A stretch of 48,905 nt of DNA, from NCBI GenBank assembly GCA_022841375.1, contig JALHRQ010000022.1, positions 1 through 48,905 on the forward strand, in the 5' to 3' direction. Source of the DNA: Burkholderiales bacterium. Its GTDB lineage: Bacteria > Pseudomonadota > Gammaproteobacteria > Burkholderiales > SG8-41. Positions 20,582 through 40,572 of this stretch are shown here, piece by piece (the stretch's first letter is position 1; every line of letters begins with the position of its first letter). A program made the translations under genes and the position numbers. The notes under the pieces were generated by a model. That model did no database searches. It worked only from the letters and a program-made list of their open reading frames with translations, and was not told where the DNA came from.

Positions 20582-20597
20582 CTTGACCAGAGTCAAG
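20582..20597. promoter_or_regulatory. Crp/Fnr-type operator between frc and its regulator
   Basis: CTTGAC-CAGA-GTCAAG is a perfect dyad with 6-base arms. It lies 175 bp before frc and 92 bp before the regulator gene. It belongs to a set of four near-identical sites in the window (also 21432, 26768 and 40559). Confidence 0.75.
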
Positions 20598-20688
20598 ATT
20601 CCAAGCCAAAAATTTACCTAATAAACAAATAGTTATAAAATCCAACCCCTGCTGTCCACTGCGCATTCCTCTACCCTTTCCGCCACCC

Positions 20689-21297
20689 ATGACCCAGCTT
20701 GCGCTGCACCCCCAATCCAAAATCATCCGCCTGCAGTTGCGGCAGAACATGGTTTTGAAAACTCTCAGCGCGGCGCAATGGAGCGAATTCGAACCCCTGC
20801 TGGAAATCACCGATTACGCCAAAAGCGAAACCCTGGAACACCAGGGCACACACTCGATGGAGCAGTATTTCATCATCGACGGCATCCTCAAACGTACGGT
20901 TTCCAATGCCCAGGGCAAGGAGATGATCCTGCGTTTTGCCGCCGAAAGCGACATCGACACCAGCTACGCTGCCTGGCGGCTGAAAACGCCGATGCCGTAC
21001 TCGATCCGCGCGGTCACCCGTGTGCGCGCCGCCAAGCTGTCGATGCTGCAATGGGCGGCATTCCTTGAGCGCCATGCCCGGATCAAGGGCGAATTTGAAC
21101 TCGAAGTCATGCGGCTGATGAGCGAAGTGATGGCGCATACCATAACCCTGCATCTGCTCGACGCACCGGGCCGGGTGCAGCGTTTCATGCGCAAAAACAT
21201 CGAACTGGGTGAACGCCTGCCGAAAAAGGAACTGGCCTCCTATTTGAACCTCTCCCCGGAGACACTGAGCCGTCTCAAACGGCGCGGCAAAATTTAA
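20689..21297 (+). CDS. Crp/Fnr-family regulator, probable oxalate-locus regulator
   Basis: The 202-residue protein has a cyclic-nucleotide-binding-like beta roll (about 20-115), a long dimer helix (about 118-150) and a C-terminal winged HTH (about 155-202). There is no cysteine at all, so it cannot hold an FNR iron-sulfur cluster. The effector pocket lacks an obvious cAMP-binding RE...R set. The recognition helix LSPETLSRLKRRG has the ExxSR arrangement FNR uses to read TTGA half-sites, matching the TTGAC dyads nearby. It is divergent from frc and upstream of oxc. It ends soon after the HTH, so it lacks a C-terminal extension. The likely inducer is an oxalate-pathway metabolite (inference). 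Confidence 0.9.
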   Translation: MTQLALHPQSKIIRLQLRQNMVLKTLSAAQWSEFEPLLEITDYAKSETLEHQGTHSMEQYFIIDGILKRTVSNAQGKEMILRFAAESDIDTSYAAWRLKTPMPYSIRAVTRVRAAKLSMLQWAAFLERHARIKGEFELEVMRLMSEVMAHTITLHLLDAPGRVQRFMRKNIELGERLPKKELASYLNLSPETLSRLKRRGKI

Positions 21298-21431
21298 GCG
21301 GCTGCAGCGGGGCGAAAAATCTGCCGGTTTCCCGCCTGCCCCTCGCAAACAGCCGGGCCATTTGATGCATTGCAATACGCTGACCCTGCCGGTCAAACCT
21401 GGGCTTCGAGGGAACTGTCCCGGCGTAAAAA

Positions 21432-21445
21432 TTGACCGGGGTCAA
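21432..21445. promoter_or_regulatory. Crp/Fnr-type operator upstream of oxc
   Basis: TTGAC-CGGG-GTCAA, an exact dyad, lies 185 bp before the oxc start. It sits in the 332-bp gap after the regulator gene, which shows no other gene and probably carries the oxc promoter and leader. Confidence 0.72.
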
Positions 21446-21629
21446 GAGCGCAGGTGCATGCCGCCGCCTATGATACGCCCCAGCTAATCACAGCCCTGTT
21501 AAGGGGCGCAGATTCGCCGTGAACCGATGCAACCCGGCCCTGAACCGATTGGCCCTGCGTCTATCCCCACGGCGGGTTAAATGAGAAAACTCCTGTTCAA
21601 TCGACAGCAAGATCACGAGGCATTCCAAT

Positions 21630-23366
21630 ATGACGACTGACACCCCATCTCAAGAAATGACCGACGGCTTCAACCTGGTCATCGATGCGCTGAAACTCAA
21701 CGGCATCGACACCATTTTCGGTCTTCCCGGCATTCCGATTACCGACCTGACCCGCAAGATGCAGGCTGCCGGCATGCGCGTGATTTCGTTCCGCCACGAG
21801 CAGAATGCCGGCAATGCCGCCGCCATCGCCGGATTTCTGACGCAAAAGCCCGGCATCTGCCTGACAGTGTCCGCGCCCGGCTTTCTCAACGGCCTTAACG
21901 CACTGACCAATGCCACCACCAACTGCTTTCCGATGATCCTGATCAGCGGCTCCAGCGAGCGCGAGATCGTCGACCTGCAGCAGGGTGACTACGAAGAAAT
22001 GGACCAACTGGCGATCGCCAAACCGCTGTGCAAGGCCGCCTTCCGCGTGCTGCATGCCGAGGATATCGGCATCGGCGTCGCGCGCGCAATCCGCGCCGCG
22101 GTCTCCGGCCGTCCGGGCGGTGTTTACCTCGACCTGCCGGCCAAGCTGTTCGCACAGAGCATCGACGCAGCTGCCGGCAAGGCCTCACTGATCAAGGTTG
22201 TCGATCCGGCACCACGGCAGATCCCGGCACCGGAAGCCGTGCAGCGTGCACTTGAAATGCTGAAAAACGCCAAACGCCCGTTGATCGTGCTCGGCAAAGG
22301 TGCCGCCTACGCCCAGGCCGATGACGACATCCGCGCGCTGGTCGAGAAAACCGGCATCCCCTACCTGCCGATGTCGATGGCCAAGGGCCTGCTGCCCGAT
22401 ACCCACAAACAGTCTGCTGCCGCCGCGCGCTCCTATGTGCTGCCGGAGGCCGACGTGGTGATGCTGATCGGCGCGCGCCTGAACTGGCTGCTGTCGCACG
22501 GCAAGGGTAAAACCTGGGGCGGCAAGGACCACAAGGCCTGGGGCGGCCAGAAATACATTCAAATCGACATTTCGCCGCAGGAAGCCGACAGCAATGTACG
22601 CATCGACGCACCGGTGGTCGGTGACATCGGCTCCTGCGTCTCCGCCATGCTCGGCGGCATCAAGGCGGCGGGCGCCGGCTGGCCGCAGCCCTCCGGTGAC
22701 TGGTTGGGCGCAATAGACGAACGCAAAACCAAAAACATCGCCAAGATGGCCGAGACGCTGGCGAAAAATCCGAGCCCGATGAATTTCCACAGCGCGCTCA
22801 ACGTGATGCGCGACGTCATCAAGGACAACCCGGACGCGATGCTGGTCAACGAAGGGGCCAACGCGCTGGACTTCACCCGCAGCATTGTCGACATGTACAA
22901 GCCGCGCAAGCGCCTCGACGTCGGCACCTGGGGCGTGATGGGCATCGGCATGGGCTTTGCCGTCGCCGCCGCCGTGGTCAGCGGCCAGCCGGTGATCGCG
23001 GTCGAGGGCGACAGCGCCTTCGGCTTCTCCGGCATGGAAGTCGAGACCATCTGCCGCTACAACCTGCCGGTGTGCGTGGTGATCATGAACAACAACGGCG
23101 TTTACAAGGGCACCGACGTCAATCCGACCGGCGGTACAGACGTCGCGCCCACGGTGTTCGTCAAAGGCGCGCGTTACGACAAGATGATGGAAGCCTTTGG
23201 CGGCGTCGGCGTACAGGCCACAACGCCCGCAGAATTGCGCAAGGCGGTCGAAGAAGCCGTGCGTTCACGTAAACCGACGCTGATCAATGCCGTGATCGAT
23301 GAAACCGCCGGCACCGAAAGCGGGCGCATCACCAGCCTGAATCCGACAGCGGCAAAAAAGAAATAA
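21630..23366 (+). CDS. oxc: Oxalyl-CoA decarboxylase
   Basis: The 578-residue thiamine-diphosphate enzyme compares with about 568 in Oxalobacter. Glu57 (FRHEQNAGN) is the cofactor-activating glutamate. Tyr121-Glu122 (GDYEEMDQ) match the active-site pair of characterised oxalyl-CoA decarboxylases. The ThDP/Mg motif runs from GDSAFGFSG (460-468) to NNN (487-489). A Rossmann-like middle domain (190-345) would bind ADP/CoA. It converts oxalyl-CoA to formyl-CoA and CO2 in the cytosol, consuming a proton. A GAGG ribosome site precedes the ATG. It is transcribed alone and ends at a bidirectional terminator facing the tct operon. Confidence 0.96.
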
Positions 23367-23377
23367 GCACACGCAAC

Positions 23378-23418
23378 AAAAAATACGGCCCGGGCAGATG
23401 CCCGGGCCGTATTTTTTT
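23378..23418. terminator. Bidirectional terminator between oxc and tctA
   Basis: A 12-bp stem (TACGGCCCGGGC / GCCCGGGCCGTA) with an AGAT loop is flanked by six A on the left and seven T on the right, so it can end transcripts from both converging genes. Confidence 0.93.
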
Positions 23419-23434
23419 GCCAATGCTGTCGGGA

Positions 23435-24934
23435 TCAGGCCGCGCTCTTGCGCAACGCCGCCTTCATTCGGCCGATCAGGGGCCAGAACAGCATCAGCAA
23501 TCCCAGCGCCATGATGCTGCCGACCAGCCCGTTGGAGAAAAACACCCGCACATCACCTTGCGAGATCAGCATCGACTGCCGGAAAGCATCTTCGGCCTGG
23601 TCGCCCAGAACAAGGGCCAGCACCAGCGGCGCCAGCGGGTAGGACAGTTTCTTGAAGGCGTAGCCCATGACACCGAACAACAGCATGAACCAGATGTCCA
23701 GCATCGCATTGTTAACCGTAAAAGCACCGATGGCGCAGATGACGATGATCACCGGCGCCACGATCGAAAACGGAATGCGCAGGATGGCGGCGAACAGCGG
23801 CACGCAGGTCAGGACGATGATCAGGCCGACGATGTTGCCGAGATACATGCTGGCAATCAGGCCCCAGACAAAATCCTTCTGCTCGACAAACAGCAACGGT
23901 CCCGGCTGCAAGCCCCAGATCAGCAGGCCGCCCAGCAGCACGGCGGCGGTGGGCGACCCGGGGATGCCCAGCGACAACATCGGCAACAGGGCTGCAGTGC
24001 CCGCGGCATGGGCCGCGGTTTCCGGCGCGACTATGCCTTCGGGCATACCGGTACCAAACTTGCCGCCATCAGGGGACATGCGTTTGGCGATGCCGTAACT
24101 CATGAACGAGGCTGGTGTAGCGCCACCCGGCGTGATCCCCATCCAGCAGCCGATGATGCAGCTGCGCAGCGAGGTCAGCCAGAATTTGGGCAGCTTTTTC
24201 CAGGTTTCGATGACAATACGCATGTTGATTTTCGCAGTGCGCCCCTGGAACGACAGGCCCTCCTCCATCGACAACAGGATCTCGCCGATTCCGAACAGGC
24301 CGATCACCGCGATCAGGAAGTCGAAACCGCGCATCAGCTCATGCCAGCCGAAAATCAGGCGCAGCTGGCCGGTGACCGTATCGATACCCACCGCGGCCAG
24401 TGCAAAGCCCAACATCATCGCCGCGACAATCTTGAACGGCGGCTCTTTGCCCATACCGATGAAGCTGCAGAAGGTCAGGAAAAATACGGAAAAGAATTCC
24501 GGTGGACCGAACTGCAACGCAAATTTGGCGACCAGCGGCGCGAGGAAGGTGATCATCACCACCGCAAAAAATGCGCCGATGAAGGACGACGTGAACGCCG
24601 TGGTCAGCGCCTCTCCCGCCTTGCCCTGCTGCGCCATCGGGTAACCGTCAAACGTGGTTGCGACCGACCAGGGTTCGCCCGGAATGTTGAACAGGATGGA
24701 GGTGATCGCACCGCCGAACAGCGCACCCCAGTAAATGCATGAAAGCATGATTACCGCCGAGGTCGGCGGCATGGTGAACGTCAGTGGCAGCAGGATCGCA
24801 ATACCGTTGGCACCGCCCAGACCGGGCAGCACGCCGATCAATACGCCCAATACGACCCCGATCACCATCAACATCAGGTTGAACGGCGTCAGCGCTACGG
24901 AGAACCCGTGAAATAGGGCGTTGATTTCTTCCAA
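23435..24934 (-). CDS. tctA: Tripartite tricarboxylate transporter, large membrane subunit
   Basis: The 499-residue protein has about 11-12 membrane segments and the TctA signatures GVLPGLGGANGIAILLPLTF near 35-54 and GITPGGATPASFMSYG near 255. In the family it forms the carboxylate channel, driven by an ion gradient and fed by a periplasmic binding protein. It is the last gene of tctCBA. The substrate is unknown from sequence; its position between oxc and the shared operator upstream of tctC makes oxalate or a related dicarboxylate a reasonable guess. Confidence 0.94.
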   Translation of the reverse strand: MEEINALFHGFSVALTPFNLMLMVIGVVLGVLIGVLPGLGGANGIAILLPLTFTMPPTSAVIMLSCIYWGALFGGAITSILFNIPGEPWSVATTFDGYPMAQQGKAGEALTTAFTSSFIGAFFAVVMITFLAPLVAKFALQFGPPEFFSVFFLTFCSFIGMGKEPPFKIVAAMMLGFALAAVGIDTVTGQLRLIFGWHELMRGFDFLIAVIGLFGIGEILLSMEEGLSFQGRTAKINMRIVIETWKKLPKFWLTSLRSCIIGCWMGITPGGATPASFMSYGIAKRMSPDGGKFGTGMPEGIVAPETAAHAAGTAALLPMLSLGIPGSPTAAVLLGGLLIWGLQPGPLLFVEQKDFVWGLIASMYLGNIVGLIIVLTCVPLFAAILRIPFSIVAPVIIVICAIGAFTVNNAMLDIWFMLLFGVMGYAFKKLSYPLAPLVLALVLGDQAEDAFRQSMLISQGDVRVFFSNGLVGSIMALGLLMLFWPLIGRMKAALRKSAA

Positions 24935-25002
24935 GTCGCCTGCTCCTCTAAATCAATATGACCGGTATCAGTGCGTTTACCGGGGATGCTCAGAAACCTA
25001 AC

Positions 25003-25527
25003 TCAGTAACCTAAAAAGCTGAGGGGATTGAACGCCCCTTTGAACAGCGGCACCTTGAACCATATTTCGAACATCATGAATGTGGCCACGCTGACGGCGA
25101 TGCCGAGCAGCACGCTCTTGAACCAGGAATATTTGCCGAGCCACACCATGAAAAAAGCGATATAGGCCACCGACGCGACATAAATGCCGATCATCTGGAT
25201 GCCGAATACAAAAATCGCGGCGGGCACCAGCACGGACAGTACCAGCCTGAGCTGATCCCACTCGACGAACACCTTGTGCTCGCCGCGACGCTTGCCGAAA
25301 AAAACCTGGCTCAGGACGCCCAGACTGGACACGCAGATCAACACGGCGATATAAAAGGGGAAATAACCCGCCTCGGGTCCGTCCCCCACCCAGCGAAACC
25401 CCAGACGGACACTGTCATACATGACCAGTCCGCCCAAAGTCAGCAGAAATAGAGCCACTGCAATCTCTGCAGCCCGTACCGAAATGCCGGATGGCACCAC
25501 TTCACCGGAATCCTGTTTGTTTGCCAT
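25003..25527 (-). CDS. tctB: Tripartite tricarboxylate transporter, small membrane subunit
   Basis: The product has 174 residues from the ATG at 25527. A TTG three codons upstream is possible but less likely. It has four hydrophobic segments, including one near residue 20 and a pair in the C-terminal half, the normal TctB topology, with few conserved residues. It lies between tctC and tctA in the operon, 68 bp before tctA, and completes the membrane complex. Confidence 0.9.
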   Translation of the reverse strand: MANKQDSGEVVPSGISVRAAEIAVALFLLTLGGLVMYDSVRLGFRWVGDGPEAGYFPFYIAVLICVSSLGVLSQVFFGKRRGEHKVFVEWDQLRLVLSVLVPAAIFVFGIQMIGIYVASVAYIAFFMVWLGKYSWFKSVLLGIAVSVATFMMFEIWFKVPLFKGAFNPLSFLGY

Positions 25528-25591
25528 GCAATTCAACCCAGTGCTTTAAAGAAATCTGGAAAGCCGGACGCATCCCCGCCGGATACCGGAA

Positions 25592-25617
25592 CCCGACGGG
25601 CCGGGAGGCCCGTCGGG
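25592..25617 (-). other. Intercistronic stem-loop between tctC and tctB
   Basis: A perfect 11-bp stem (CCCGACGGGCC / GGCCCGTCGGG) with a four-base loop starts 12 bp after the tctC stop codon. No T tail follows, so it probably stabilises the tctC 3' end or weakens read-through, giving more binding protein than membrane subunits. Confidence 0.6.
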
Positions 25618-25629
25618 ATAAGCCAATGA

Positions 25630-26643
25630 TCAGGGTTTAGCCAGGAACCCGGCTTCCTTCATCAGGTCGCGGTGCAGCGATTCCGCCTTGGCCACCCAGT
25701 CAGCGTAGGCTTTACCGGTCATGAAAGTCTGGTTGAATGCGCCGTCTTCCATGAATTTTTTCCACTCCGGAGTCGCACGCACCTTGTTGAACAGGTCAAC
25801 ATAAAAAGCGACCACGTCCGGGGGCACACCGGCCGGCATGAAAATGCCGCGCAGCATCACGTAATCCATCGGGATGCCGGCTTCCTTGCAGGTCGGGACG
25901 TCGTTCCAGGACTGTGTTGCGGTGACTTTATCCTTGTACGGCATGCGCTGATCGTCAAACACGCACAATGCACGCAGTGAACCCGCACGCCATTGCGCCA
26001 CCGCCTCGATCGGATTGTTGACGCTCGAGTTGATGTGTTTGCCGACCAGCTGGGTTGCCACCGCACCACCGCCCTTGAACGGGATGTAGGTGAACTTGAC
26101 GCCGGCTGCCTTTTCGATCGCCACGGTGATGATCTGGTCTTCCTGCTTGGAACCCGTGCCGCCCATCTTGAAGGCGTTGGGGCCGCCTTTTTTCACCGCG
26201 TCCAGATACTCCTTGGGGGTTTTGTAGGGATCTTCCGAGTTCACCCACAACACGAAGTTGTCCAGAGACAACATCGCCACCGGAGTCAGATCTTTCCAGT
26301 TGAACGGAACACCGGTGGCCATCGGCGTCGTGAACAGGTTCGACAGCGTGATGATGATTTTGTGCGGGTCGCCCTTGGCCGCCTTGAGCTCAAGGAAACC
26401 TTCGGCGCCGGCGCCACCCGACTTGTTAACGGGAATCAGCGCCTGCTTCATCAGGTTGTGCTTGGCGACGATGCCCTGGATCAGGCGCGCCATCTGGTCA
26501 GCACCACCGCCGGTGCCTGCGGGGATGATGAACTCGACCGACTTGGTCGGCTCCCATGCGGCGACAGGCGATGCCGCGGTCATGAAACCAAGTGCAGCGA
26601 CCAGTGGCAACAGGCCGCGCGAAAATGCTCGCTGAATGTTCAT
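25630..26643 (-). CDS. tctC: Bug/TctC-family periplasmic solute-binding protein
   Basis: The 337-residue precursor has a signal peptide ending near residue 29 (SPVAAWEP). The mature protein starts with the Bug fold (SVEFIIPAGTGGGADQMAR) and has the second-domain carboxylate loop (IPFKGGGAVATQLVGKH near 195). Such proteins bind a carboxylate through two water-bridged loops and deliver it to TctAB. A strong AAGGAGGAG site precedes the ATG. It heads the tct operon, and a TTGAC-CGCA-ATCAA site 125 bp upstream ties it to the oxalate genes. Confidence 0.93.
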   Translation of the reverse strand: MNIQRAFSRGLLPLVAALGFMTAASPVAAWEPTKSVEFIIPAGTGGGADQMARLIQGIVAKHNLMKQALIPVNKSGGAGAEGFLELKAAKGDPHKIIITLSNLFTTPMATGVPFNWKDLTPVAMLSLDNFVLWVNSEDPYKTPKEYLDAVKKGGPNAFKMGGTGSKQEDQIITVAIEKAAGVKFTYIPFKGGGAVATQLVGKHINSSVNNPIEAVAQWRAGSLRALCVFDDQRMPYKDKVTATQSWNDVPTCKEAGIPMDYVMLRGIFMPAGVPPDVVAFYVDLFNKVRATPEWKKFMEDGAFNQTFMTGKAYADWVAKAESLHRDLMKEAGFLAKP

Positions 26644-26767
26644 GTGACTCCTCCTTGTTACGATTGAACGACGGGTTTGCTGAGTTATACCCTGCGACCT
26701 TGATCGCGGCCCAACTTTATTAGTACGTCGTGTGCGTCATTCTTCCGCATAAAGCGCGGTGAAAGAA

Positions 26768-26781
26768 TTGACCGCAATCAA
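26768..26781. promoter_or_regulatory. Crp/Fnr-type operator upstream of tctC
   Basis: TTGAC-CGCA-ATCAA lies 125 bp before tctC. It is one base off a perfect dyad, and the sequence TTGACCGCA is shared with the site before sucC. The surrounding gap (26644-26910) shows no gene. Confidence 0.7.
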
Positions 26782-26910
26782 GAATTGAGTATATCCGCCC
26801 GTTTAACGCATTGGTCACGCATTCGCGCGACCGCGGAGGGGACACGTCTGCTGCCGTCAGGCCAGCACTGAGGTGTGGTTAAAAATAATGTCAATAAATA
26901 CAAACACTTA

Positions 26911-26944
26911 GAAAATCCGCCCGATGCAGAATGCGCCGGACGGA
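26911..26944 (-). terminator. Probable terminator of the transporter-usp operon
   Basis: The minus strand pairs TCCGTCCGGCGCA with TGCATCGGGCGGA, 13 positions with one mismatch and two G-T pairs, around TTC. TTTTC follows. It begins 9 bp after the usp stop codon. Confidence 0.65.
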
Positions 26945-26952
26945 ATCCGTAA

Positions 26953-27396
26953 TCAGCGATGCACGAACACCGGGACTTTCGACCCGGAAATGACTTTCTG
27001 CGTCTGGCTTCCCAGCAACGCCCGGGACAGACCGCGACGGCCGTGCGATGCGATGTAAATCAGGTCGCATTTTTCCTTTTTCGCGGTGGCGAGAATTACG
27101 TCCGCCGGAAAATCACTGGTGGTGCTGATCAATTTGTACGGAACTTTCGCCGCCTTGGCATCTTTCTCGACAATCCCCAGATAAAGCTCGGCAGACTTGC
27201 GAATCACCGCGGCATGTTCTGACGACGTGCCGTAACCCACCGGCAGCAGATTTTTGTAGACCAGCGGAGTCGCCGGCGGCGCGGCGTAAACCGCGGTCAC
27301 CTTGGCACCTATCGTTTTGGCGAGTTTGACGGCGGCCGCGATTGCGGAACGGGACAGCGCGGAGCCGTCGGTCGGAACCAGAATATTCTTGTACAT
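26953..27396 (-). CDS. Universal stress protein, UspA family
   Basis: The 147-residue single-domain protein begins YKNILVPTDGSALS and ends in VPVFVHR, the two outer strands of the Usp fold. The glycine loop reads GRRGLSRALLGS, with six residues between the second and third glycine in place of nine, so ATP binding of the MJ0577 kind is uncertain. It is the third gene behind the Mn-type riboswitch at 30314-30444, 83 bp after the second transporter, and is presumably co-expressed with it. The TerC fusion protein nearby carries a different Usp domain. Confidence 0.9.
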   Translation of the reverse strand: MYKNILVPTDGSALSRSAIAAAVKLAKTIGAKVTAVYAAPPATPLVYKNLLPVGYGTSSEHAAVIRKSAELYLGIVEKDAKAAKVPYKLISTTSDFPADVILATAKKEKCDLIYIASHGRRGLSRALLGSQTQKVISGSKVPVFVHR

Positions 27397-27479
27397 GTCT
27401 TCTCCTTCAATTTTGTTTTCCGGCGCACGCTGCCGCGCCGGATGTCTTTAACAGTGCGCGTGCTTATGACGCATCCTGC

Positions 27480-28796
27480 TTACTTCGCGTACGGCAGCAC
27501 CCAGAACAGCATGCCGAGCACATAGCAGACTACCGAACAGACGATTGTAAAGGGCACGCTCCAAGCCAGGAATTCGCGCAACGACACCTTGCGCCCCTCC
27601 TCTTTCTCGCCCAGCGACAACGCGACATACAGCGCTGGCGCACCGGCCACCGTCAGGTTGCTGCCCAACGTGCCCGACCACAGCAGCATCCAGTACAGCG
27701 GCCACGGCTCGATGCCGCTCGCGCCCATGTCCTTGATGGTGCGCAGGAAGGTCAGGATATAGGCATCGTGTTCAACAATGCCGACGATGGGGACGGTAAT
27801 CCAATACAACAACGTTGCGCCCAAGGCATAGTTTTCGAGAAATATCGGCTTGATCTGGTTGGCCAGCAGATCAAGGATATGGCTTTTCTCGAGACCACCG
27901 ACCAGCGCAAACAGCGCAACATAGAAAAAGATCGCCCGCCAGTCGAGCTCCTGCACGCTTTCCTCGAAACTGTCAGCCTCCTTGACGCGGTCGCCGAGCA
28001 GTGCCAGCACCAGCACCAGCGAAATCGCGCCGGTCATCGAAATGAAACCGAGTTGTACGCCGATGTATTCGCGCATCGACATCGCCACCACGGTGCCGAC
28101 AAACCAGACGACGACGACGGTCGCAAACAGCGGGTTTTCGATTTTTGCCGAAAGGCCCAGACTGTTCAGGTCGGCAACGCGTTTGTGGCCGCGAAAGCCG
28201 TAGAACCACATCGCGGCGAGGGTGATCACAAAAGTCACCATCAGGATCGGGAACGACGACGGCCTGCCATGCTGCCAGAAGAAATCCCAGAACTCGGCAC
28301 CGGCGACGCTGTGCAGCATCTGCGGCGGCAGGTCACCGATCAGCAATGCGGTGCCCATGAAGTTGGCACCGAAGCCGATCATCAGGATCACCGGCACCGG
28401 CGACAACTTCATCGCCCGTGCCAACGGCAGCGCGACGGGCGCCATCATCAGGATGGTCACCACGTTGTCGACGAACATCGAAATAAAGCCGGCAAGGAAG
28501 GTCAGGATCATCACCAGCAGACCGGGACGACCGCCGGACAGCTTCAGCGCCTGTATTGACAGCCAGCTCGGCACCCCGGACTTGCCGAAATGTCCGGCAA
28601 TGATCCAGATACCAACCAGGATCGCCATCACGTTCCAGTCAACGAACTTGAAGGCTTCGGTCTCGGTCATGATACCCATCCAGCACATCACGGCCACGCC
28701 GATCAGCGCCGCCAACGTGCCGTCAATTACATTGGTGATCACCACCACGATCGTCAGGGCAAAGACGATCAGCGTTAGCCATTGCATCGCTTCCAT
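27480..28796 (-). CDS. ArsB/NhaD-family (ion transporter superfamily) membrane transporter
   Basis: The 438-residue protein has about 11 membrane segments. Signature regions are MFVDNVVTILMMAPVALPLAR near 115 and GANFMGTALLIGD near 145, with an inverted-repeat partner near VEHDAYILTF and GSNLTVAGAPA near 385. This pattern fits the ArsB/NhaD/P-protein branch of the IT superfamily, which exchanges cations or oxyanions for protons. The substrate cannot be told. It is the second gene after the riboswitch, 34 bp behind another transporter of the same superfamily. The two differ in length and sequence, so they are not a recent duplication. Confidence 0.87.
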   Translation of the reverse strand: MEAMQWLTLIVFALTIVVVITNVIDGTLAALIGVAVMCWMGIMTETEAFKFVDWNVMAILVGIWIIAGHFGKSGVPSWLSIQALKLSGGRPGLLVMILTFLAGFISMFVDNVVTILMMAPVALPLARAMKLSPVPVILMIGFGANFMGTALLIGDLPPQMLHSVAGAEFWDFFWQHGRPSSFPILMVTFVITLAAMWFYGFRGHKRVADLNSLGLSAKIENPLFATVVVVWFVGTVVAMSMREYIGVQLGFISMTGAISLVLVLALLGDRVKEADSFEESVQELDWRAIFFYVALFALVGGLEKSHILDLLANQIKPIFLENYALGATLLYWITVPIVGIVEHDAYILTFLRTIKDMGASGIEPWPLYWMLLWSGTLGSNLTVAGAPALYVALSLGEKEEGRKVSLREFLAWSVPFTIVCSVVCYVLGMLFWVLPYAK

Positions 28797-28830
28797 AGGT
28801 TTTCTCTTCTGTAAATTTAAAAACTAAAAA

Positions 28831-30444: not shown

Positions 30445-30489
30445 CGCGCACTTTCAGAGAATCATTGAGACCCGAAAGCACGTAGGGGC

Positions 30490-31743: not shown

Positions 31744-31802
31744 TTTCTTCTCCGGTATCTCGACGGTGCAGCGGCCACCCGCCACAGCCTTGTTGTTAAC
31801 GC

Positions 31803-31840
31803 AAAAAAAAAGACCTTTGCCCGTTACCGGACAAAGGTCT
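31803..31840 (-). terminator. Riboswitch-controlled terminator in the TerC leader
   Basis: AGACCTTTG and CAAAGGTCT, extended by inner CCG/CGG pairs, form a strong hairpin followed by at least eight T. Its 5' arm is the 3' strand of the riboswitch P1 stem, so aptamer closure and terminator formation exclude each other. Confidence 0.92.
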
Positions 31841-31953
31841 TGCTTGCAAAATTGCTTTTGCCGGCGGACCGGGGAGCGAACGATATCCGCATCCCGTAAT
31901 GACGGCCCCACCGGGGCAGCCAACTCAGCGCCACCCTAGCTACTCCCCTTTGC
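31829..31953 (-). promoter_or_regulatory. yybP-ykoY (Mn2+) riboswitch upstream of the TerC fusion gene
   Basis: The minus strand begins GCAAAGGGGAGTAGC at 31953 and closes with GCAAGACCTTTGTCC at 31843-31829, both diagnostic for this class. P1 formation captures the 5' arm of the overlapping terminator, so metal binding should turn the gene on. The TerC YjbE family is a classic partner of this riboswitch. Confidence 0.94.
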
Positions 31954-32028
31954 GACGCTAAGCCATCGGCTTGACGCGTCCTGCTGCAAAATCTTGCTGA
32001 ATCCGCCCCGCTGAGGGGCAAAGTCCGC

Positions 32029-32034
32029 ATTATA
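32029..32034 (-). promoter_or_regulatory. -10 element for the TerC riboswitch transcript
   Basis: A perfect TATAAT on the minus strand lies just after the fhs stop codon, about 70 bp before the aptamer. No good -35 is visible; it would fall inside the fhs 3' end. Confidence 0.45.
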
Positions 32035-32037
32035 CGA

Positions 32038-33711
32038 TCAGAACAGCCCGATCACCTTGCCATCATCGGTCAAATCGATTTTCTCCGACGACGGCACTTT
32101 GGGCAGACCCGGCATGGTCATGATGTCACCGCAGATCATCACAATGAATTCCGCGCCGGCGGCGAGCCGCACTTCACGGACGTTGACCATATGCCCGCTG
32201 GGCGCGCCACGCACGCTGGCATCGGTCGAAAACGACGACTGGGTTTTTGCCACACATACCGGATAGTGGCCATAACCGGCTTCCTGCAGTTCCTTGATGC
32301 GATTGCGCACTTTGGAGTCTGCGGAAATGTCGGCTGCGCCGTAAACCTTGGTCGCGATCTTTTTCATCTTGTCCCACAGCGTGTCGCTGTCTTCGTAGAC
32401 GAAGGTCGGGTTGGATTTCTGTTCGCACAGTTCGACCACGATATTCGCCAGTTCGGCCGCGCCCTTGCCACCCTCACCCCAATGGTTGGCCACAACAACA
32501 CGCGCGCCGAGCTTGGCGATGCGGTCGGTGAGCAGATCCATCTCGGCCTTGGTGTCGGCAGTAAAGCGGTTGACCGAGACCACGCAGGGGATGTTGTAGA
32601 CGTTCTTGACGTTGTGAACATGACGCTCGAGGTTGACCAGGCCTTTTTCCAGCGCGACCAGGTTTTCCTTGTTGAGGTCTTCCTTGCCGACGCCGCCATG
32701 ATGTTTAAGTGCGCGGACGGTGGCAACAATCACCGCTGCAGCCGGCATCAGCCCGGCCTTGCGGCATTTGATGTCGAGGAATTTCTCCGCGCCGAGGTCG
32801 GCACCGAAGCCGGCTTCGGTCACTACGTAGTCAACCAGTTTCAGCGCGGTCTTGGTGGCGATCACCGAGTTGCAGCCGTGGGCGATATTGGCGAAGGGAC
32901 CGCCGTGGATGAACGCGGCGTTGTTTTCCAGCGTCTGCACCAGGTTCGGCGCCAGTTGATCTTTCAGCAACACCGTCATTGCGCCGTGCGCCTTCAGATC
33001 GCGCGCACGCAGCGGCTTGCCGTCTCGGGTATAACCGAACACGATATTGCCGAGGCGCTCTTTCAGATCCTTCAGCGAGGTCGCCAGACAGAAAATCGCC
33101 ATCACTTCGGAGGCCACAACGATGTCGAAACCGTCTTCGCGCGGATAGCCGTTGGCGGTACCGCCCAGCGATATCACGATGTCACGCAGCGCGCGGTCGT
33201 TCATGTCCATCACGCGCTTCCAGGTAATGCGGCGCGGATCGATACCGAGTTCGTTGCCATGCGAGATGTGGTTGTCGATCATCGCGGCGAGCAGGTTGTT
33301 CGCCAGTGCGATGGCGCCGAAGTCACCGGTGAAATGCAGGTTGATGTCTTCCATCGGCACCACCTGGGCATAACCGCCACCAGCTGCGCCGCCCTTGACG
33401 CCGAACACCGGGCCCAGCGAAGGTTCGCGCAGGCAGATCATCGCTTTTTTGCCGATGTGGTTCAGCGCGTCGCCCAGACCCACGGTGGTCGTGGTCTTGC
33501 CTTCGCCCGCGGGCGTCGGATTGATCGCGGTGACGAGGATCAGCTTGCCGTCTTTTTTGCCTTTCAGGCTGTCGACATACTCCAGCGACACCTTGGTCTT
33601 GTAGTGGCCATAAGGCACCAGATGTTCTTCAGGTATGCCCAGCTTCTGCGCAATCTTGTTGATGCGCTCCATTTTTGCCGCCTGGGCAATTTCGATGTCC
33701 GACAGTGCCAT
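32038..33711 (-). CDS. fhs: Formate-tetrahydrofolate ligase
   Basis: The 557-residue cytosolic enzyme joins formate to THF using ATP, giving 10-formyl-THF. The P-loop [20 protein letters not shown] is near residues 65-84, followed by [23 protein letters not shown] and FTGDFGA, all family signatures. The length is normal for bacterial Fhs. The ribosome site is AGGAGAGG. It is the last gene of the fdhB-fdhA-fhs group, 69 bp after fdhA, so formate can be either oxidised or captured into folate. A CCCGC/GCGGG stem lies in the gap at 33751-33764. Confidence 0.96.
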
Positions 33712-33780
33712 GTTGATTCCTCTCCTGAACGATAAATAATTTTTGATCCCCGCAGTCGCGGGTGTTGTTTTGCTGCAGTA

Positions 33781-36591
33781 TTAAACCTTGGCCAGTTTCG
33801 CAAGCACCTGCCCGCCGCCATAACTGGATCGCGGCATCAGTTCGCCGCCTTTCATCACCTTGACCGCGCAATATTTGAACTCCGGAATCTTGCCGAAGGG
33901 ATCCAGCGCCGCGTTGGTCAGCAGATTGGCGGCGGCCTCGTAGAACGCAAACGGAATGAACACTGCACCGCGCGGCGTGCCGTCGTCAGCGCGCGCGTGC
34001 AGAGAAATAATGCCGCGCCGTGATTCGACGGTGATGACGTCGCCGCCCTTTGCACCCAGCGCATCGAGGTCGAGCGGATGAAGCGACACCGTCGGTTCCG
34101 GTTCGATCGCATCGAGCACCCCGGCCCGGCGGGTCATCGAGCCGGTATGCCAGTGTTCAAGTTGCCGTCCGGTGATCAACACAAACGGGAATTCACCGTC
34201 AGGGCGTTCATTCGCCGGGATGATGTCCGCCGGCACAAATTTGGCGCGCCCCGTCGGCGTTGGAAATTTATCAATAAAAACAGTAGCTTGTCCGGGGTCA
34301 CCCTCTTTGAGGCAGGGATAGGTGACGCTGCTCTCGGCTTCCAGCCGTTCCCAGGTAATGCCGGCGATTGAATTCATCGCCAGGCGCATCTCGTTGAACA
34401 CATCCTTCGGACCGCTGTAGTTCCAGTCGAGATCAAGCCGGCGCGCCAGCTCCTGGATGATCCACAAATCCGGCTTGGCTTCACCCGGCGCATCAACTGC
34501 CTTTCGCCCGAGCTGCACCATGCGGTCGGTGTTGGTGACGGTGCCGTCTTTTTCCGGCCACACGGTGGCGGGCAGGATCACGTCGGCGTGATAACAGGTT
34601 TCGGTGAGGAAAATTTCCTGCACCACCAGCCAGTCGAGTTTGGCCAGCGCTTCGCGCGCGTGATTGGCATCCGGATCGGACATTGCCGGGTTTTCACCCA
34701 TCACATACATGCCGCGGATGTCGCCATCGAGAATCGCATGCACGATTTCGACGACGGTCAGGCCCGGCTTCGGATCCAGCTTGGTGTTCCACAGTTTTTC
34801 GAAACGTGCCAACGCCTGCGGATTGTCAACGCGCTGATAGTCCGGAAACAGCATCGGGATCAAACCCGAATCGGATGCACCCTGCACGTTGTTCTGGCCG
34901 CGCAAGGGATGCAGGCCCGAACCCGGTTTGCCGATCTGACCGGTCATCAGGCAAAGCGCGATCAGGCAACGCGCGTTGTCGGTGCCGTGCACGTGCTGGG
35001 AAATGCCCATGCCCCACAGAATCATCGAGGCCCTGGAAGTCGCATAAAGCCGCGCCACTTCCTTGATGGTTTCCGCCGGGATGCCGCACAACGGCGCCAT
35101 CGCCTCGGGGCTGTAACCTTCTACGTTGTTCTTCAGGTCTTCGTAACCGATGGTGCGCGAGCGGATGAAATCCTCGTCAACCAGTCCTTCATGGACAATG
35201 ACATGCATGATCGCGTTGAGTAGCGCGACGTCGGTATCGGGCTTGAACTGCAGCATGTGAGTGGCGTGCCGCGCCAGCTCGTTGCGCCGCGGATCGGCAT
35301 AAATCAGCTTGGCGCCGTTTTTGACCGCGTTCTTGATCCAGGTCGCCGCCACCGGATGATTGGACAGCGGGTTCGCGCCGATCAGGAAAATCACTTCCGC
35401 ATGCGCCACATCGTTGACCTGGTTCGACACCGCGCCGGAACTCACCGCTTCCATCAGTGCGGCGACGCTCGAGGCATGGCACAGCCGCGTGCAATGGTCG
35501 ACATTGTTGGAGCCGAAGCCGGTGCGTACCAGCTTCTGGAACAGATAGGCTTCTTCGTTGCTGCCCTTGGCCGAACCGAATCCGGCCAGCGCCTTGTTGC
35601 CGTACTGGTCACGAATGCCTTTGAGCTTGCCGGCGGCCAGATCCAGCGCCTCTTCCCAGGTCGCTTCGCGGAAATATTCCAGAGGCTTCGCCGGATCCAT
35701 CGTGAAGTCGGCGTGTTTAGGTACGCCCGGCTTGCGAATCAGCGGCTTGGTCAGACGCTGGGGATGGTGCGCATAGTCAAAGCCATAGCGGCCCTTGACG
35801 CACAGCCGGCCATGATTCGACGGACCGTCGCGGCCATCCACCGACAGGATTTTGTTGTCCTTGATGTTGTAAGTCAGCTGGCAGCCGACGCCGCAGTACG
35901 GACATACCGAATGAACCTGCTTGTCCGGCTTGACCAGTCCCGCCTCGCGCGCCGGCATCAGTGCGCCGGTCGGGCAGGCCTGCACGCATTCGCCGCAGGC
36001 GACACAGGTGGACTCACCCATTGGATCATCAAGATCGAAAACGATCCTGGAGTGATCACCGCGGAAGGCATAACCGATGACATCGTTGACCTGTTCTTCG
36101 CGGCAGGCGCGCACGCAGCGTGTGCACTGGATGCAGGAATCAAGATTGACCGCTATGCCGTGGTGCGACAGGTCGGCCTGCGGCTGCTGCCGTTTCGCAA
36201 AACGCGGCTTGCCGACCTGCAGTTTGCCCGCCCAATGGTCGAGCTCGGAATTATTGGTATGGCGCTTTTCAGGCATGTCGGAGAGCAGCAGTTCCATCAC
36301 CATTTTCTGCGACGCCACGGCGCGCGTGCTGTTGGTGGTGACTTCCATGCCCGGCGACGGATTGCGGCAGCACGATGCCGCCAAGACGCGCTCACCCTTG
36401 ACCTCGACCACGCAGGCGCGGCAGTTGCCGTCGGGACGCAGACCTTCCTTGTAGCAAAGGTGCGGAATCTCGACGCCGTGGCGTTTCGCGGTCTGGATGA
36501 TGGTTTCCGACGCGTAGCCGACGACTTCCTTGCCGTTCAGTTTGAACTCGACCGGCATTGCCGCGAGTTCGTCTTTGCTCATTGCAGTCAT
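33781..36591 (-). CDS. fdsA: NAD-dependent formate dehydrogenase, molybdopterin alpha subunit
   Basis: The 936-residue protein has, in order, a [2Fe-2S] ferredoxin domain (about 10-95, with CYKEGLRPDGNCRAC) and a NuoG-type His/Cys segment. A two-[4Fe-4S] ferredoxin domain follows (CIQCTRCVRAC, then CVACGECVQACPTGAL). The catalytic bis-MGD domain begins CPYCGVGCQLTYN. The active-site residue is Cys in DHCTRLCHASS, followed by His, as in Mo/W enzymes without selenocysteine. It oxidises formate to CO2 and passes electrons to the partner flavoprotein and NAD+. The twin-arginine signal is absent, so it is cytosolic. It lies 43 bp after the partner gene. Mo versus W cannot be told. Confidence 0.95.
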   Translation of the reverse strand: MTAMSKDELAAMPVEFKLNGKEVVGYASETIIQTAKRHGVEIPHLCYKEGLRPDGNCRACVVEVKGERVLAASCCRNPSPGMEVTTNSTRAVASQKMVMELLLSDMPEKRHTNNSELDHWAGKLQVGKPRFAKRQQPQADLSHHGIAVNLDSCIQCTRCVRACREEQVNDVIGYAFRGDHSRIVFDLDDPMGESTCVACGECVQACPTGALMPAREAGLVKPDKQVHSVCPYCGVGCQLTYNIKDNKILSVDGRDGPSNHGRLCVKGRYGFDYAHHPQRLTKPLIRKPGVPKHADFTMDPAKPLEYFREATWEEALDLAAGKLKGIRDQYGNKALAGFGSAKGSNEEAYLFQKLVRTGFGSNNVDHCTRLCHASSVAALMEAVSSGAVSNQVNDVAHAEVIFLIGANPLSNHPVAATWIKNAVKNGAKLIYADPRRNELARHATHMLQFKPDTDVALLNAIMHVIVHEGLVDEDFIRSRTIGYEDLKNNVEGYSPEAMAPLCGIPAETIKEVARLYATSRASMILWGMGISQHVHGTDNARCLIALCLMTGQIGKPGSGLHPLRGQNNVQGASDSGLIPMLFPDYQRVDNPQALARFEKLWNTKLDPKPGLTVVEIVHAILDGDIRGMYVMGENPAMSDPDANHAREALAKLDWLVVQEIFLTETCYHADVILPATVWPEKDGTVTNTDRMVQLGRKAVDAPGEAKPDLWIIQELARRLDLDWNYSGPKDVFNEMRLAMNSIAGITWERLEAESSVTYPCLKEGDPGQATVFIDKFPTPTGRAKFVPADIIPANERPDGEFPFVLITGRQLEHWHTGSMTRRAGVLDAIEPEPTVSLHPLDLDALGAKGGDVITVESRRGIISLHARADDGTPRGAVFIPFAFYEAAANLLTNAALDPFGKIPEFKYCAVKVMKGGELMPRSSYGGGQVLAKLAKV

Positions 36592-36634
36592 GGCTTCAAC
36601 TCCGGTATGACGCCGCGCAGTCGCGCCGGCATCC

Positions 36635-38332
36635 CTACTCGACTTCCTTGGGGAAATACTTGATCACGGTGCGGATCGGGTTCGGCGCCGCCTGGCCCAG
36701 ACCGCAGATCGACGCATCAGCCATCGCGCCCGACAGTTCTTCGAGCAGACCGCGGTTCCATTGCGGTGCACCCATCAACTGCAACGCCTTCGCCGTGCCA
36801 ACGCGGCAGGGCGTGCACTGACCGCAGGATTCTTCAGAGAAGAACTTCATCACGTTGCGCGCTGCGCTGCGGGCCTTGTCCTGGTCTGAAAAAATGATCA
36901 CCGCCGCCGAACCGATGAAACAGCCGTATTGATTCAGCGTGTCAAAATCCAGCGGAATGTCACCCATCGACGCCGGCAGGATGCCGCCCGAGGCGCCACC
37001 CGGCAGATAGCCGTAGAACTGGTGCCCCGGCAGCATGCCGCCGCAATATTCAGCGATCAGTTCTTTCACTGTGATGCCCGCCGGCGCGAGATGCACACCG
37101 GGCTTGTTCACGCGGCCTGACACCGAAAACGAGCGCAGGCCCTTGCGCCCGTTGCGGCCATGGCCGGCAAACCAGTCAGCGCCCTTTTCGAGGATATCGC
37201 GCACCCAGTACAGGGTTTCCATGTTGTGCTCGAGCGTCGGGTAACCGAACAGCCCCACCTGAGCCACATACGGCGGACGCAGCCGCGGCATGCCGCGTTT
37301 GCCTTCTATCGATTCGATCATTGCCGACTCTTCGCCGCAGATATAGGCACCTGCACCGCGGCGCAGGAATATCGGCGGCAGCGGGCACGGCGGATTGGCC
37401 TGCAACGCCTTGATTTCTTTTTCAAGTATCGCCCGCACGCCGGCGTATTCGTCGCGCAGGTAAATATAAACCTCGGATATCTGCACCGTCCACGCGGCGA
37501 TGATCACGCCTTCGAGGAAACGATGCGGATCGCGCTCGAGATAGTACCGGTCCTTGAACGTGCCGGGCTCACCCTCGTCGATATTGACCGCCATCAACCG
37601 CGGCCCTTTTTCGCCGCGCACGATGCGCCATTTGCGACCCGACGGGAAACCCGCGCCGCCCAGGCCACGCAGCCCCGAGTTCTCCATGGTCTTGATCAGC
37701 GATTCGGCGTCACGTTTACCTGAAAGACACTCGATGACGATGTCGTAACCACCCTGCTTGCGGTATTCGGCGTAAGACACATATTTGCCGACCGCACATT
37801 TGTCCCTGTTGCCGGCGACCAGTGCTTTGACTTTATCAACGGTCGCCTGCGCCACCGGATTCTGTCCGACCACCGCCACCGGGGCCTGTTCGCAGCGGCC
37901 GACGCAGGGCGCGGGGATTACACGCACCTTGTCGCCCAGCGATTGTTTGAGACCTTTGATCAGTTCATTGGAACCGGACAGTTCGCAGGACAGCGAATCG
38001 CAGACCCGCACGGTCAACGCCGGCGGCGCCTTGTCGCCTTCCTTGACCACGTCGAAGTGGTGATAGAAGGTCGCCACTTCATAGACTTCCGTCATCGCCA
38101 GTTTCATTTCACGCGCCAGCGCCACCACATGCGCAGCGGGAATATGGCCGTAACGGTCCTGGATCAGATGCAGATTTTCAATCAGCAGATCGCGACGGCG
38201 CGGGTCAACCCCGGTTTTGCGCTGCGCCTCATCCAGCAAGGCTTGGACTTCGGCGAGCGCGCCCGTATCCAGCGCGCGCCCCCTGAGGGCGCCCCGCACA
38301 CGTTTACCGCGTTTCACGATGCCACCTTCCAA
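36635..38332 (-). CDS. fdsB: Formate dehydrogenase beta subunit, fused NuoE/NuoF (FdsG-FdsB) type
   Basis: Of 565 residues, about 20-170 form a NuoE-like thioredoxin-fold [2Fe-2S] domain (CDSLSCELSG and CVGRCEQAP). Residues about 190-565 form a NuoF-like flavoprotein with the NADH/FMN loop GLRGLGGAGFPSGRKW, GAGAYICGEESAMI and the [4Fe-4S] site ESCGQCTPCRVG. Fds systems often encode these as two genes; here they are fused, as in two-subunit FDH1-type enzymes. It takes electrons from the alpha subunit and reduces NAD+. The start is TTG at 38332, seven bases after GAGGAGG; a GTG five codons later is the alternative. Confidence 0.93.
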   Translation of the reverse strand: MEGGIVKRGKRVRGALRGRALDTGALAEVQALLDEAQRKTGVDPRRRDLLIENLHLIQDRYGHIPAAHVVALAREMKLAMTEVYEVATFYHHFDVVKEGDKAPPALTVRVCDSLSCELSGSNELIKGLKQSLGDKVRVIPAPCVGRCEQAPVAVVGQNPVAQATVDKVKALVAGNRDKCAVGKYVSYAEYRKQGGYDIVIECLSGKRDAESLIKTMENSGLRGLGGAGFPSGRKWRIVRGEKGPRLMAVNIDEGEPGTFKDRYYLERDPHRFLEGVIIAAWTVQISEVYIYLRDEYAGVRAILEKEIKALQANPPCPLPPIFLRRGAGAYICGEESAMIESIEGKRGMPRLRPPYVAQVGLFGYPTLEHNMETLYWVRDILEKGADWFAGHGRNGRKGLRSFSVSGRVNKPGVHLAPAGITVKELIAEYCGGMLPGHQFYGYLPGGASGGILPASMGDIPLDFDTLNQYGCFIGSAAVIIFSDQDKARSAARNVMKFFSEESCGQCTPCRVGTAKALQLMGAPQWNRGLLEELSGAMADASICGLGQAAPNPIRTVIKYFPKEVE

Positions 38333-38413
38333 AATTGCGCCTCCTCAAGCCATCACTGCAACCGCTCCCCATTCATGAGGAGCGGGACTTCCCTTGGATT
38401 ACTTCCTCGTTAC

Positions 38414-39298
38414 TTACTTCAGTACCGATTTAAGCAGCTTGCCCATCTCCGCCGGATTTTTTGTCGTGCGAATGCCGCACTCTTCCATCACCGACAGCTT
38501 TTCTTCCGCCGTGCCTTTGCCGCCCGAGATGATCGCGCCGGCATGACCCATGCGTTTTCCGGGTGGCGCGGTAACGCCGGCGATAAAGCCGACCACCGGT
38601 TTTTTCATGTTGTCCTTGATCCAGCGCGCGCATTCCTCTTCATTGGAACCGCCGATTTCGCCGACCATGATCACCGCCTCGGTCTGCGGATCATCGTTGA
38701 ACATTTTCATGACATCGATGTGCTTCAGGCCGTTGACGGGATCGCCGCCGATACCGACACACGATGACTGGCCGAGCCCGATTTCCATCAACTGCCCGAC
38801 CGCCTCATAGGTCAGAGTGCCGGAGCGCGACACCACGCCAATCGGTCCCTTCTTGTGGATGTGTCCCGGCATGATGCCGATCTTGATTTCATCCGGCGTG
38901 ATTACGCCCGGGCAGTTCGGCCCGATCAGCAGGGTTCTGCTGTTGTTCTGCTGCATCTTGTATTTCAGGCGCACCATGTCGCGCACCGGAATGCCTTCGG
39001 TGATGCAGATCACCAGATCAAGATCGGCGTCCACCGCTTCTTCGATCGCTGCGGCAGCATAGGGGGGCGGCACGTAAATCACCGAAACATTGGCGCCGGT
39101 CGCATCCTTGGCTTCGCGCACCGAGTTGAAAATGGGGATGCCTTCGTAATTCTGGCCACCCTTTTTCGGCGTCACGCCGGCGACGTAGCAGTTCTTGCCG
39201 TTGGCGTATTCCTTGCCGGTCTTGGTGTGAAACATGCCGGTCTTGCCGGTGATGCCCTGGGTCATCACCCGGGTGTCTTTGTTGATCAGAATCGACAT
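38414..39298 (-). CDS. sucD: Succinyl-CoA synthetase alpha subunit
   Basis: The 294-residue protein is of normal length. It has a CoA-binding Rossmann domain ([13 protein letters not shown] near 15-28; [15 protein letters not shown]) and the phosphohistidine loop [17 protein letters not shown] near 250. It overlaps the sucC stop codon in TGATG, implying coupled translation. It forms the heterodimer or heterotetramer with SucC. Here it may also supply succinyl-CoA for the first activation of oxalate. A 7-bp hairpin without T tail lies between it and the formate dehydrogenase genes. Confidence 0.96.
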
Positions 39299-40467
39299 CA
39301 GTTTTTCCCCTTCGCCGCAGCAACCACTTTTTGCGCGGCATCAGCCATGTTGTTCCCGGAAATGATCGGCAACCCCGAGTCTGCGAGGATCTTTTTGCCG
39401 AGTTCGACGTTGGTGCCTTCGAGGCGCACCACCAGCGGCACGCTCAGGCTGACCTGACGCGCCGCGGCAACCACGCCCTGCGCGATCACGTCGCATTTCA
39501 TGATGCCGCCGAAAATGTTGACCAGGATGGCCTTCAGCTGCGGGTTGCGCAGCATGATCTTGAACGCTTCGGTGACCTTCTCCGCCGTGGCGCTGCCGCC
39601 GACGTCGAGGAAGTTGGCGGGACTGCCGCCGTAGAGCTTGATGATGTCCATCGACGCCATCGCCAGCCCGGCGCCGTTGACCAGGCAGCCGATGTTGCCG
39701 TCGAGTTGAATGTAATTGAGGTCGTGTTTCGACGCTTCGACTTCCGCGGGATCTTCTTCGTCGAGATCGCGCAGCGCCACCAGTTCCGGATGACGGAACA
39801 TAGCGTTGTTGTCGAAGTCGATTTTGGCGTCGAGGGCGATGACCTTGCCGTCGCCGGTGAGGATCAAGGGATTGATTTCAGCCAGCGAAGCATCGGTCTC
39901 GTCGAACGCCTTGTACAACGACTGCAGCATGGCACGCGCCTGTGGCACTGCTGCATCGGGCACGCCGATCTTGCGCGCCACGTTATCGGCGTCGGCGTCG
40001 GCCAGCCCTTTGACCGGATCAATGACGACCTTGTGGATTTTTTCAGGGGTATGTGCGGCGACTTCTTCGATGTCCATGCCGCCTTCACTGGAGGCCATCA
40101 ACACTGCGCGCTGGGTGCCGCGGTCGATCACCAGGCCGATATACAACTCCTTTTTGATGTCGGCGCCTTCCTCAATCAGCAGCCGGCGCACTTTCTGACC
40201 TTCGGGGCCGGTCTGATGGGTCTTCAATTGCATGCCGAGGATCGCAGACGCGTAGGTTTTGACGTCGGCCGGCGACTTCGCCACCTTGACGCCGCCGCCC
40301 TTGCCGCGGCCGCCGGCGTGAATCTGCGCCTTGACGACCCACACGCTGCCACCCAGTTTGGCAGCGGCGCCGACGGCTTCATCAACCGTAAAACACGGGA
40401 TGCCGCGCGGCGTGACAACGCCATATTTGCGCAGGAGTTCTTTTGCCTGATATTCGTGAATTTTCAT
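39298..40467 (-). CDS. sucC: Succinyl-CoA synthetase beta subunit
   Basis: The 389-residue ATP-grasp protein starts [17 protein letters not shown] and includes [20 protein letters not shown] and [18 protein letters not shown], plus the C-terminal [17 protein letters not shown] motif. All are typical of SucC, including the nucleotide-binding and SucD contact regions. It makes succinyl-CoA from succinate, CoA and ATP or GTP, reversibly. A TTGAC-CGCA-GTCAA dyad lies 92 bp upstream. It is the first of up to five same-strand genes (sucC, sucD, fdsB, fdsA, fhs). Confidence 0.96.
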
Positions 40468-40558
40468 ATTTCATTCCGCGTGATTAGCGCTGTTGGATGG
40501 AAGGCGTCACCCGGCCCCGCAGGGACGCCAATCTATTACAGCGCACTCCGCAGCAGCC

Positions 40559-40572
40559 TTGACCGCAGTCAA
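40559..40572. promoter_or_regulatory. Crp/Fnr-type operator upstream of sucC
   Basis: TTGAC-CGCA-GTCAA, a perfect dyad, shares TTGACCGCA with the tctC site. Its placement connects sucCD, and perhaps the downstream formate genes, to the oxalate regulator. Confidence 0.72.

Follow-up and report, generated by a model that had tools for sequence, protein, structure and literature searches.

What controls the genes for oxalate uptake and breakdown in the Burkholderiales? Oxalotrophic bacteria turn plant and fungal oxalate back into CO2 and carbonate, and a 48,905-nucleotide stretch of DNA from a Burkholderiales bacterium (the window; one complete contig, JALHRQ010000022.1, of a source genome of 4.08 Mb in 66 contigs, GCA_022841375.1) places a candidate regulator directly among the genes concerned. 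There, a gene for a short regulator of the Crp/Fnr type (20689..21297, plus strand; translation 202 amino acids) lies between frc, for formyl-coenzyme A (CoA) transferase, and oxc, for oxalyl-CoA decarboxylase. A reading made from the sequence alone (the sequence-only reading) had proposed that this protein is a redox-independent FNR relative, acting at four sites of the form TTGACC-N3-RTCAA that occur only in promoter regions, and that it joins oxalate uptake, CoA activation, decarboxylation and the succinyl-CoA ligase genes sucCD in one regulon. In our analysis the observation was partly confirmed and its interpretation partly supported: conservation, co-occurrence and promoter layout all lend the proposed regulon strong support, while the Fnr identity and the restriction of the sites to promoters did not stand. 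The regulator appears to turn on oxalate uptake and breakdown in many Burkholderiales, and formate use is probably under its control as well.

Predicted operators in the window and the source genome

Exact matches to TTGACC-N3-RTCAA occur at five places in the window. Four are in promoter regions, at the positions claimed before: the predicted frc operator in the frc/regulator region (20583..20596, minus strand; TTGACCAGAGTCAA, which towards frc reads TTGACTCTGGTCAA), the predicted oxc operator (21432..21445, plus strand; TTGACCGGGGTCAA), the predicted tctCBA operator (26768..26781, minus strand; TTGACCGCAATCAA, towards tctC TTGATTGCGGTCAA) and the predicted sucC operator (40559..40572, minus strand; TTGACCGCAGTCAA, towards sucC TTGACTGCGGTCAA). 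The fifth match (TTGACCGCCATCAA; 37584..37597, strand not assigned) lies within the coding region of fdhB (36635-38332, minus strand), which encodes a NuoE/NuoF-like formate dehydrogenase subunit, and the statement that sites occur only in promoter regions was therefore wrong by one. This match is probably due to chance; a functional role was rejected because the fdhB genes of the two close relatives checked (L247, L248) have no site.

Counted strand by strand, the window contains 6 motif matches where 0.03 are expected, and none of 100 shuffles reached 6. A genome-wide scan, which the sequence-only reading had proposed as a check, pointed the same way: the source genome has 20 distinct places with the motif, 5 of them on the 48.9 kb contig and 15 elsewhere, and the rate outside the contig predicts 0.18 sites for it (Poisson P(>=5) = 1.4e-6). 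The tighter motif TTGACYNNGGTCAA is found at 3 places in the source genome, namely before frc, oxc and sucC. Among eight relatives searched, it occurs at 3 places each in G375, G384, G395 and G416, all in the oxalate region (the gene behind one of the G416 sites, L130, matched no NCBIfam family); at 4 places in G409, 2 of them in the oxalate region; at 4 places in G411, 3 of them no more than about 16 kb away from the regulator; at 2 places in G412, before sucC and before oxc; and nowhere in G425. We rejected the idea that the motif is everywhere limited to the oxalate region; for TTGACYNNGGTCAA this is true of G000, G375, G384, G395 and G416.

Conservation across regulator-bearing loci

The sites were followed through 77 loci picked for the regulator and not for the site (the window, 28 of 39 regulator-bearing genomes, 35 further genomes and 13 of 58 loci; G713 has two additional regulator copies, L236 and L237, which were left out of the counts). 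Upstream regions of 300 bp were searched, and 11 scrambled half-sites served as a control, giving 0 or 1 in each gene class. A site was found upstream of oxc in 58 of 61 cases, of tctC in 40 of 53, of the formate:tetrahydrofolate (THF) ligase gene in 15 of 21 (several genera have a separate site for the ligase), and of an alternative thiamine pyrophosphate (TPP) enzyme, with 60% or more identity to the L220 enzyme, in 4 of 4. The counts were 19/85 for frc, which is often an operon-internal gene and for which paralogues were counted, and 1/2 for sucC. A separate survey of sucC found a site at 4 of 10 genes (the window, G375, G384 and, from another family, G412), a biased rate, as three of the four positive loci had entered the survey on account of their site. 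OxlT-like genes had a site in 4 of 19 cases. A hold-out set was drawn from the 43 loci L152-L194 and consisted of the 26 with a regulator gene absent from the main set; it gave sites at 21/21 oxc, 15/17 tctC and 13/19 frc genes. Conservation in related loci was a check that the sequence-only reading had proposed.

Records with close relatives of the regulator are mostly from uncultured Betaproteobacteria and Burkholderiales; named ones include Curvibacter, Hylemonella, Methylibium, Caldimonas and Variovorax. Eight records of metagenome-assembled genomes are titled Bordetella parapertussis (L152, L158, L160, L166, L173-L176); their regulators share 89-98% identity with regulators from uncultured Betaproteobacteria, and the labels are probably wrong. 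Over 59 loci, the pairwise identities of regulator and Oxc are correlated (Spearman 0.59), a correlation that shared descent alone could produce.

Promoter layout

At all four window promoters, a -10-like hexamer lies 23 nt past the site: TATAGT for frc (20554..20559, minus strand; kept in relatives), TATGAT for oxc (21469..21474, plus strand), AAGAAT for tctC (26739..26744, minus strand) and TAGATT for sucC (40530..40535, minus strand). Across the main set, such a hexamer starts 22-24 nt past the site in 58/58 oxc promoters (56 distinct sequences), 19/19 frc promoters, 14/15 ligase promoters and 4/4 promoters of the alternative TPP enzyme, compared with 3.5% of shuffled sequence; in the hold-out loci this was the case for oxc in 21/21, frc in 13/13 and tctC in 11/15. 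The best -35 element at a spacing of 15-19 nt was no better than in shuffles, with at most two mismatches in 12 of 116 promoters vs 16%. Class II activators such as Fnr and CRP bind near -42 at promoters with no -35. The fixed hexamer and the lack of a good -35 therefore correspond, at the level of sequence, to a class II layout in which a site near -42 replaces the -35 element. The regulator gene itself, which is possibly autoregulated, has a site upstream in 63 of the 77 loci, in some cases in common with oxc, and no fixed -10 spacing was found for these sites.

Co-occurrence of regulator, site and enzymes

We surveyed 399 genomes of the order for the regulator (E <= 1e-20) and Oxc (E <= 1e-150). 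The regulator was present in 76 and Oxc in 75, with 67 genomes containing both, 9 the regulator only, 8 Oxc only and 315 neither. In seven genomes Oxc is encoded on a different contig from the regulator, and an exact site precedes this unlinked oxc in four of them (G406, G412, G458 and G713, the last with two sites); in G722 the upstream region is interrupted by the contig end. None of the eight Oxc-only genomes has a site within 320 bp upstream of oxc, even with one mismatch allowed. One of them, G389, belongs to the same family as the window genome and has neither regulator nor site. A homologue of the Fnr-like paralogue is present in all eight (in G650 the sole match has an in-frame TGA). 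Four Oxc-only genomes (L259, L262, L263, L264) carry a common TGATATATCA palindrome upstream of oxc, which may mean that a different regulator (our guess would be one of the GntR type) took over in these four.

Of the nine regulator-only genomes, six (G411, G439, G450, G482, G492, G530) encode next to the regulator a TPP enzyme that shares only 25-27% identity with Oxc and occupies the place of oxc (L090, L211, L213, L220, L222, L240). In the five that were scanned (all except G450), it matched acetolactate-synthase-like and 2-hydroxyacyl-CoA-lyase models of NCBIfam, both below cut-off. DYEE, VYKG and a C-terminal SGR, stretches of Oxc with a catalytic role, are missing from the enzyme. G411 has sites also before an apparent second copy of the TPP-enzyme gene and before an oxalate/formate antiporter gene (TIGR04259 above cut-off); because of the latter, we did not take the alternative enzyme to prove that the pathway is one for 2-hydroxyacids. 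The two TPP-enzyme genes of G411 (L118, L090) are about 16 kb apart and have near-identical promoters with a site each. What stays constant across these exchanges is the regulator, the site, a frc-type transferase and formate handling; this suggests formyl-CoA, oxalyl-CoA or something close to them as the effector.

The regulator protein

The structure model and Foldseek show the features of the Crp/Fnr superfamily (a beta-roll, a long dimer helix and a helix-turn-helix). PF00027, a cyclic-nucleotide-binding-type domain, is above cut-off in the regulator and PF13545 below (18.9 of 27 bits); no NCBIfam model is above its cut-off for the window protein. The chain, which ends in ...PETLSRLKRRGKI, stops just past the ETLSR recognition helix: the model (predicted local distance difference test, pLDDT, 94) ends with helix 190-198 plus four residues, and the wing that follows the recognition helix in a winged helix-turn-helix is absent from it. 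This places the protein in a size class of about 190-200 residues, resembling 3dn7, in which the chain ends soon past the recognition helix. The 78 distinct orthologues have 198-218 residues, and of 40 chain ends compared, most lie no more than about ten residues past ETLSR.

The ExxSR recognition residues described in the sequence-only reading are present, with E191, S194 and R195 invariant in 58 aligned orthologues, and the eight core operator bases and the ETLSR helix show joint conservation. The lack of cysteines for an iron-sulfur cluster also held: there is no cysteine in the window protein or in 39 of the 78 orthologues, and none is invariant in the 58 aligned, which fits redox independence. 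Strictly speaking, the protein is not a relative of FNR: no NCBIfam cut-off is reached, the wing is missing and the nearest matches by sequence profile are 3dn7 and then CRP. We conclude that the regulator is of a short, wingless Crp/Fnr type and not an Fnr. The stretch T91-S92-Y93-A94-A95-W96 and residues R82, R113 and H155 show full conservation or conservation of 90% or more in the aligned orthologues, and are candidates for pocket residues.

In four loci (L198, L200, L202, L206) there is a second regulator copy nearby, 33-45% identical, with its own upstream site in L198 and L206. The source genome has many more Crp/Fnr paralogues (e.g., L022, L023, L027, L029, L030, L034 and L035), several of which combine a MLGVRREGVTEAA-type recognition helix with a C-terminal CECY motif.

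Gene content of the window

Profile scans place the genes discussed here at about 18-41 kb of the window. The frc gene (19139..20407, minus strand; TIGR03253 and NF003809 above cut-off) was given the start 20407 from the beginning of the family match, and its longest open reading frame extends to 20482. Behind it lies a formyltransferase-like gene (18170..19102, minus strand; PF00551 and PF02911 above cut-off, TIGR00460 below), which is found alongside frc in most mapped loci. On the other side of the regulator gene are oxc (21630..23366, plus strand; TIGR03254 above cut-off) and the tripartite transporter genes tctC, tctB and tctA (23435..26643, minus strand; PF03401, PF07331 and PF01970), which we infer to encode the oxalate uptake system. 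The succinyl-CoA ligase genes sucC and sucD (38414..40467, minus strand; NF001913 and NF004230 above cut-off) are followed by fdhB and fdhA, an NAD-type formate dehydrogenase pair, and the formate:THF ligase gene (together 32038..38332, minus strand; TIGR01591 and NF010030 above cut-off, TIGR01959 below). As annotated, with start codons picked mechanically, the intergenic gaps are 43-81 bp, and the five genes possibly form one unit. The sucC site may head this unit, so that formate use would possibly be included in the regulon.

Alternative explanations

Several observations weigh against the proposed regulon or parts of it. The genomes surveyed are related, so their counts are not independent, and a Fisher P is no count of events. 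The unlinked oxc genes of G577 and G453 have one-mismatch sites only; three regulator-only genomes (G675, G685, G790) are without Oxc at the threshold used, and the alternative TPP enzyme was not seen in them either. In the main set, the 300 bp before oxc are free of a site at three loci (L217, L242 and L244; in L217 and L242 there is one slightly beyond), and for tctC the -10 spacing of 22-24 nt is found in only 21 of 41 cases. Some genomes are rich in further palindromes: the looser motif TTGAC-N4-GTCAA occurs at 15 places in G722 and 10 in G530. Only 1 of 12 fdhA genes has a site upstream, and fdhA was not adopted as a direct target outside the operon argument; the ligase gene has no site directly upstream in the window, and the hold-out, with a site in 0/6 regions, does not support it as a direct target in all genomes. 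Overall, the hold-out made the case for oxc stronger and that for the ligase weaker, and our assessment of the whole weighs both.

Three other explanations of the sites were weighed. Chance similarity in GC-rich promoter DNA could account for the match inside fdhB and for the 15 elsewhere in the genome, and is hardly credible against the excess of matches in the window, the oxc and tctC counts far above those of scrambled half-sites and the hold-out counts for these two genes, complete for oxc. The sites could instead serve an oxygen sensor of the ordinary Fnr/Anr type encoded in the same genome, in which case oxalate use would be oxygen-controlled and the short protein incidental. The genome does encode two Fnr-like paralogues that have both ExxSR and cysteines (L021, L024), and the core of the Fnr box is TTGA-N6-TCAA. 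However, the form TTGAT-N4-ATCAA of the Fnr box is found in 1 of 137 sites and TTGAC on both sides in 97, and the presence of the site tracks the short regulator: the Oxc-only genomes have an Fnr-like homologue and no oxc site. On these two grounds Fnr control was rejected as the principal explanation, and we regard it as quite improbable. Finally, the short protein could be a repressor, released from these sites by an oxalate metabolite. Local catabolic regulators are often repressors, and a site next to a promoter could equally block polymerase. The fixed hexamer spacing and the -35 elements no better than shuffled speak against this, because a repressed promoter would be expected to retain its -35, and we consider repression unlikely.

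Proposed mechanism and significance

We think it likely that the protein is a short Crp/Fnr-type activator for oxalate and formate genes, which works in a class II manner at the targets below and responds to a pathway metabolite. The regulator, which is presumably dimeric and would serve oxalate and formate metabolism alone, would bind palindromes of the type TTGACC-N2-GGTCAA centred near -42, and would recruit RNA polymerase in a class II manner at promoters without a good -35. Its predicted targets in the source genome are oxc, tctCBA, sucCD and frc, the last together with the formyltransferase-like gene; fdhBA and the formate:THF ligase gene, which lie behind sucCD, may be further targets. 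Rather than oxygen or cyclic AMP (cAMP), the protein probably senses one of the pathway's metabolites, be it oxalate, oxalyl-CoA, formyl-CoA or formate. More speculatively, the protein may be a CRP-fold sensor of oxalyl-CoA, formyl-CoA, oxalate or formate that activates with a wingless DNA-binding domain, at the head of a formyl-CoA/formate regulon that runs across the order while enzymes and transporters are exchanged (Oxc for the 2-hydroxyacyl-CoA-lyase-like enzyme, Tct for OxlT); we put this forward only tentatively. We know of no CRP-fold protein with metabolites of the oxalate/formate pathway as its ligand class.

As judged from comparative evidence, the Crp/Fnr-type regulon is real, conserved and undescribed in the literature searched, and its regulator is of a known kind. 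The finding supplies a gene, a predicted operator and a target list, also in records of Variovorax, Methylibium, Caldimonas and Curvibacter. It is a potential source of an oxalate-responsive expression switch, and raises the question how a wingless Crp/Fnr protein grips DNA.

Comparison with known systems

In line with the sequence-only reading, which knew of no described oxalate regulator of this kind, no such transcriptional regulator of frc and oxc was found in the literature searched, which covered few subscription papers; PMC3886118 contains no mention of regulation, operons, GntR, Crp or Fnr. The top profile match of the regulator is 3dn7 (194 residues; E 4.7e-15 over residues 26-199). 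The match nearly reaches the chain end, so the wing is missing there too, and 3dn7 is short like the regulator. Its identity to the regulator is low, it is not among the first 50 structural matches listed, and its source is presumably Cytophaga hutchinsonii.

CRP follows by profile (E 2.1e-10), and CRP and GlxR, which have the same fold, are the top Foldseek matches, the first 50 structural matches being mostly cAMP receptors. CRP acts at class II promoters and reads TGTGA. Its cAMP contacts, which we take to be E72, R82 and S83, are not kept in the regulator, where an alignment judged by eye places S92, M102 and P103; CRP also has a wing, whereas the regulator has none. FNR and ANR, which have class II spacing, share the ExxSR recognition residues and the TTGA-N6-TCAA core with the system described here, and differ from it in that the regulator has neither conserved cysteines nor a wing and its sites are of the TTGAC and not the TTGAT form.

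DNR is a further profile match (E 3.6e-8). A published motif similar to ours is that of the delta-proteobacterial HcpR, reported as wyTTGACnnnnGTCAArw in PMC1274295, to which the TTGAC-N4-GTCAA form of most of our sites is close. According to the same source, the DNR box is CTTGATnnnnATCAAG and the targets of HcpR and DNR are nitrogen-oxide genes, whereas the predicted targets here are the genes of oxalate and formate metabolism.

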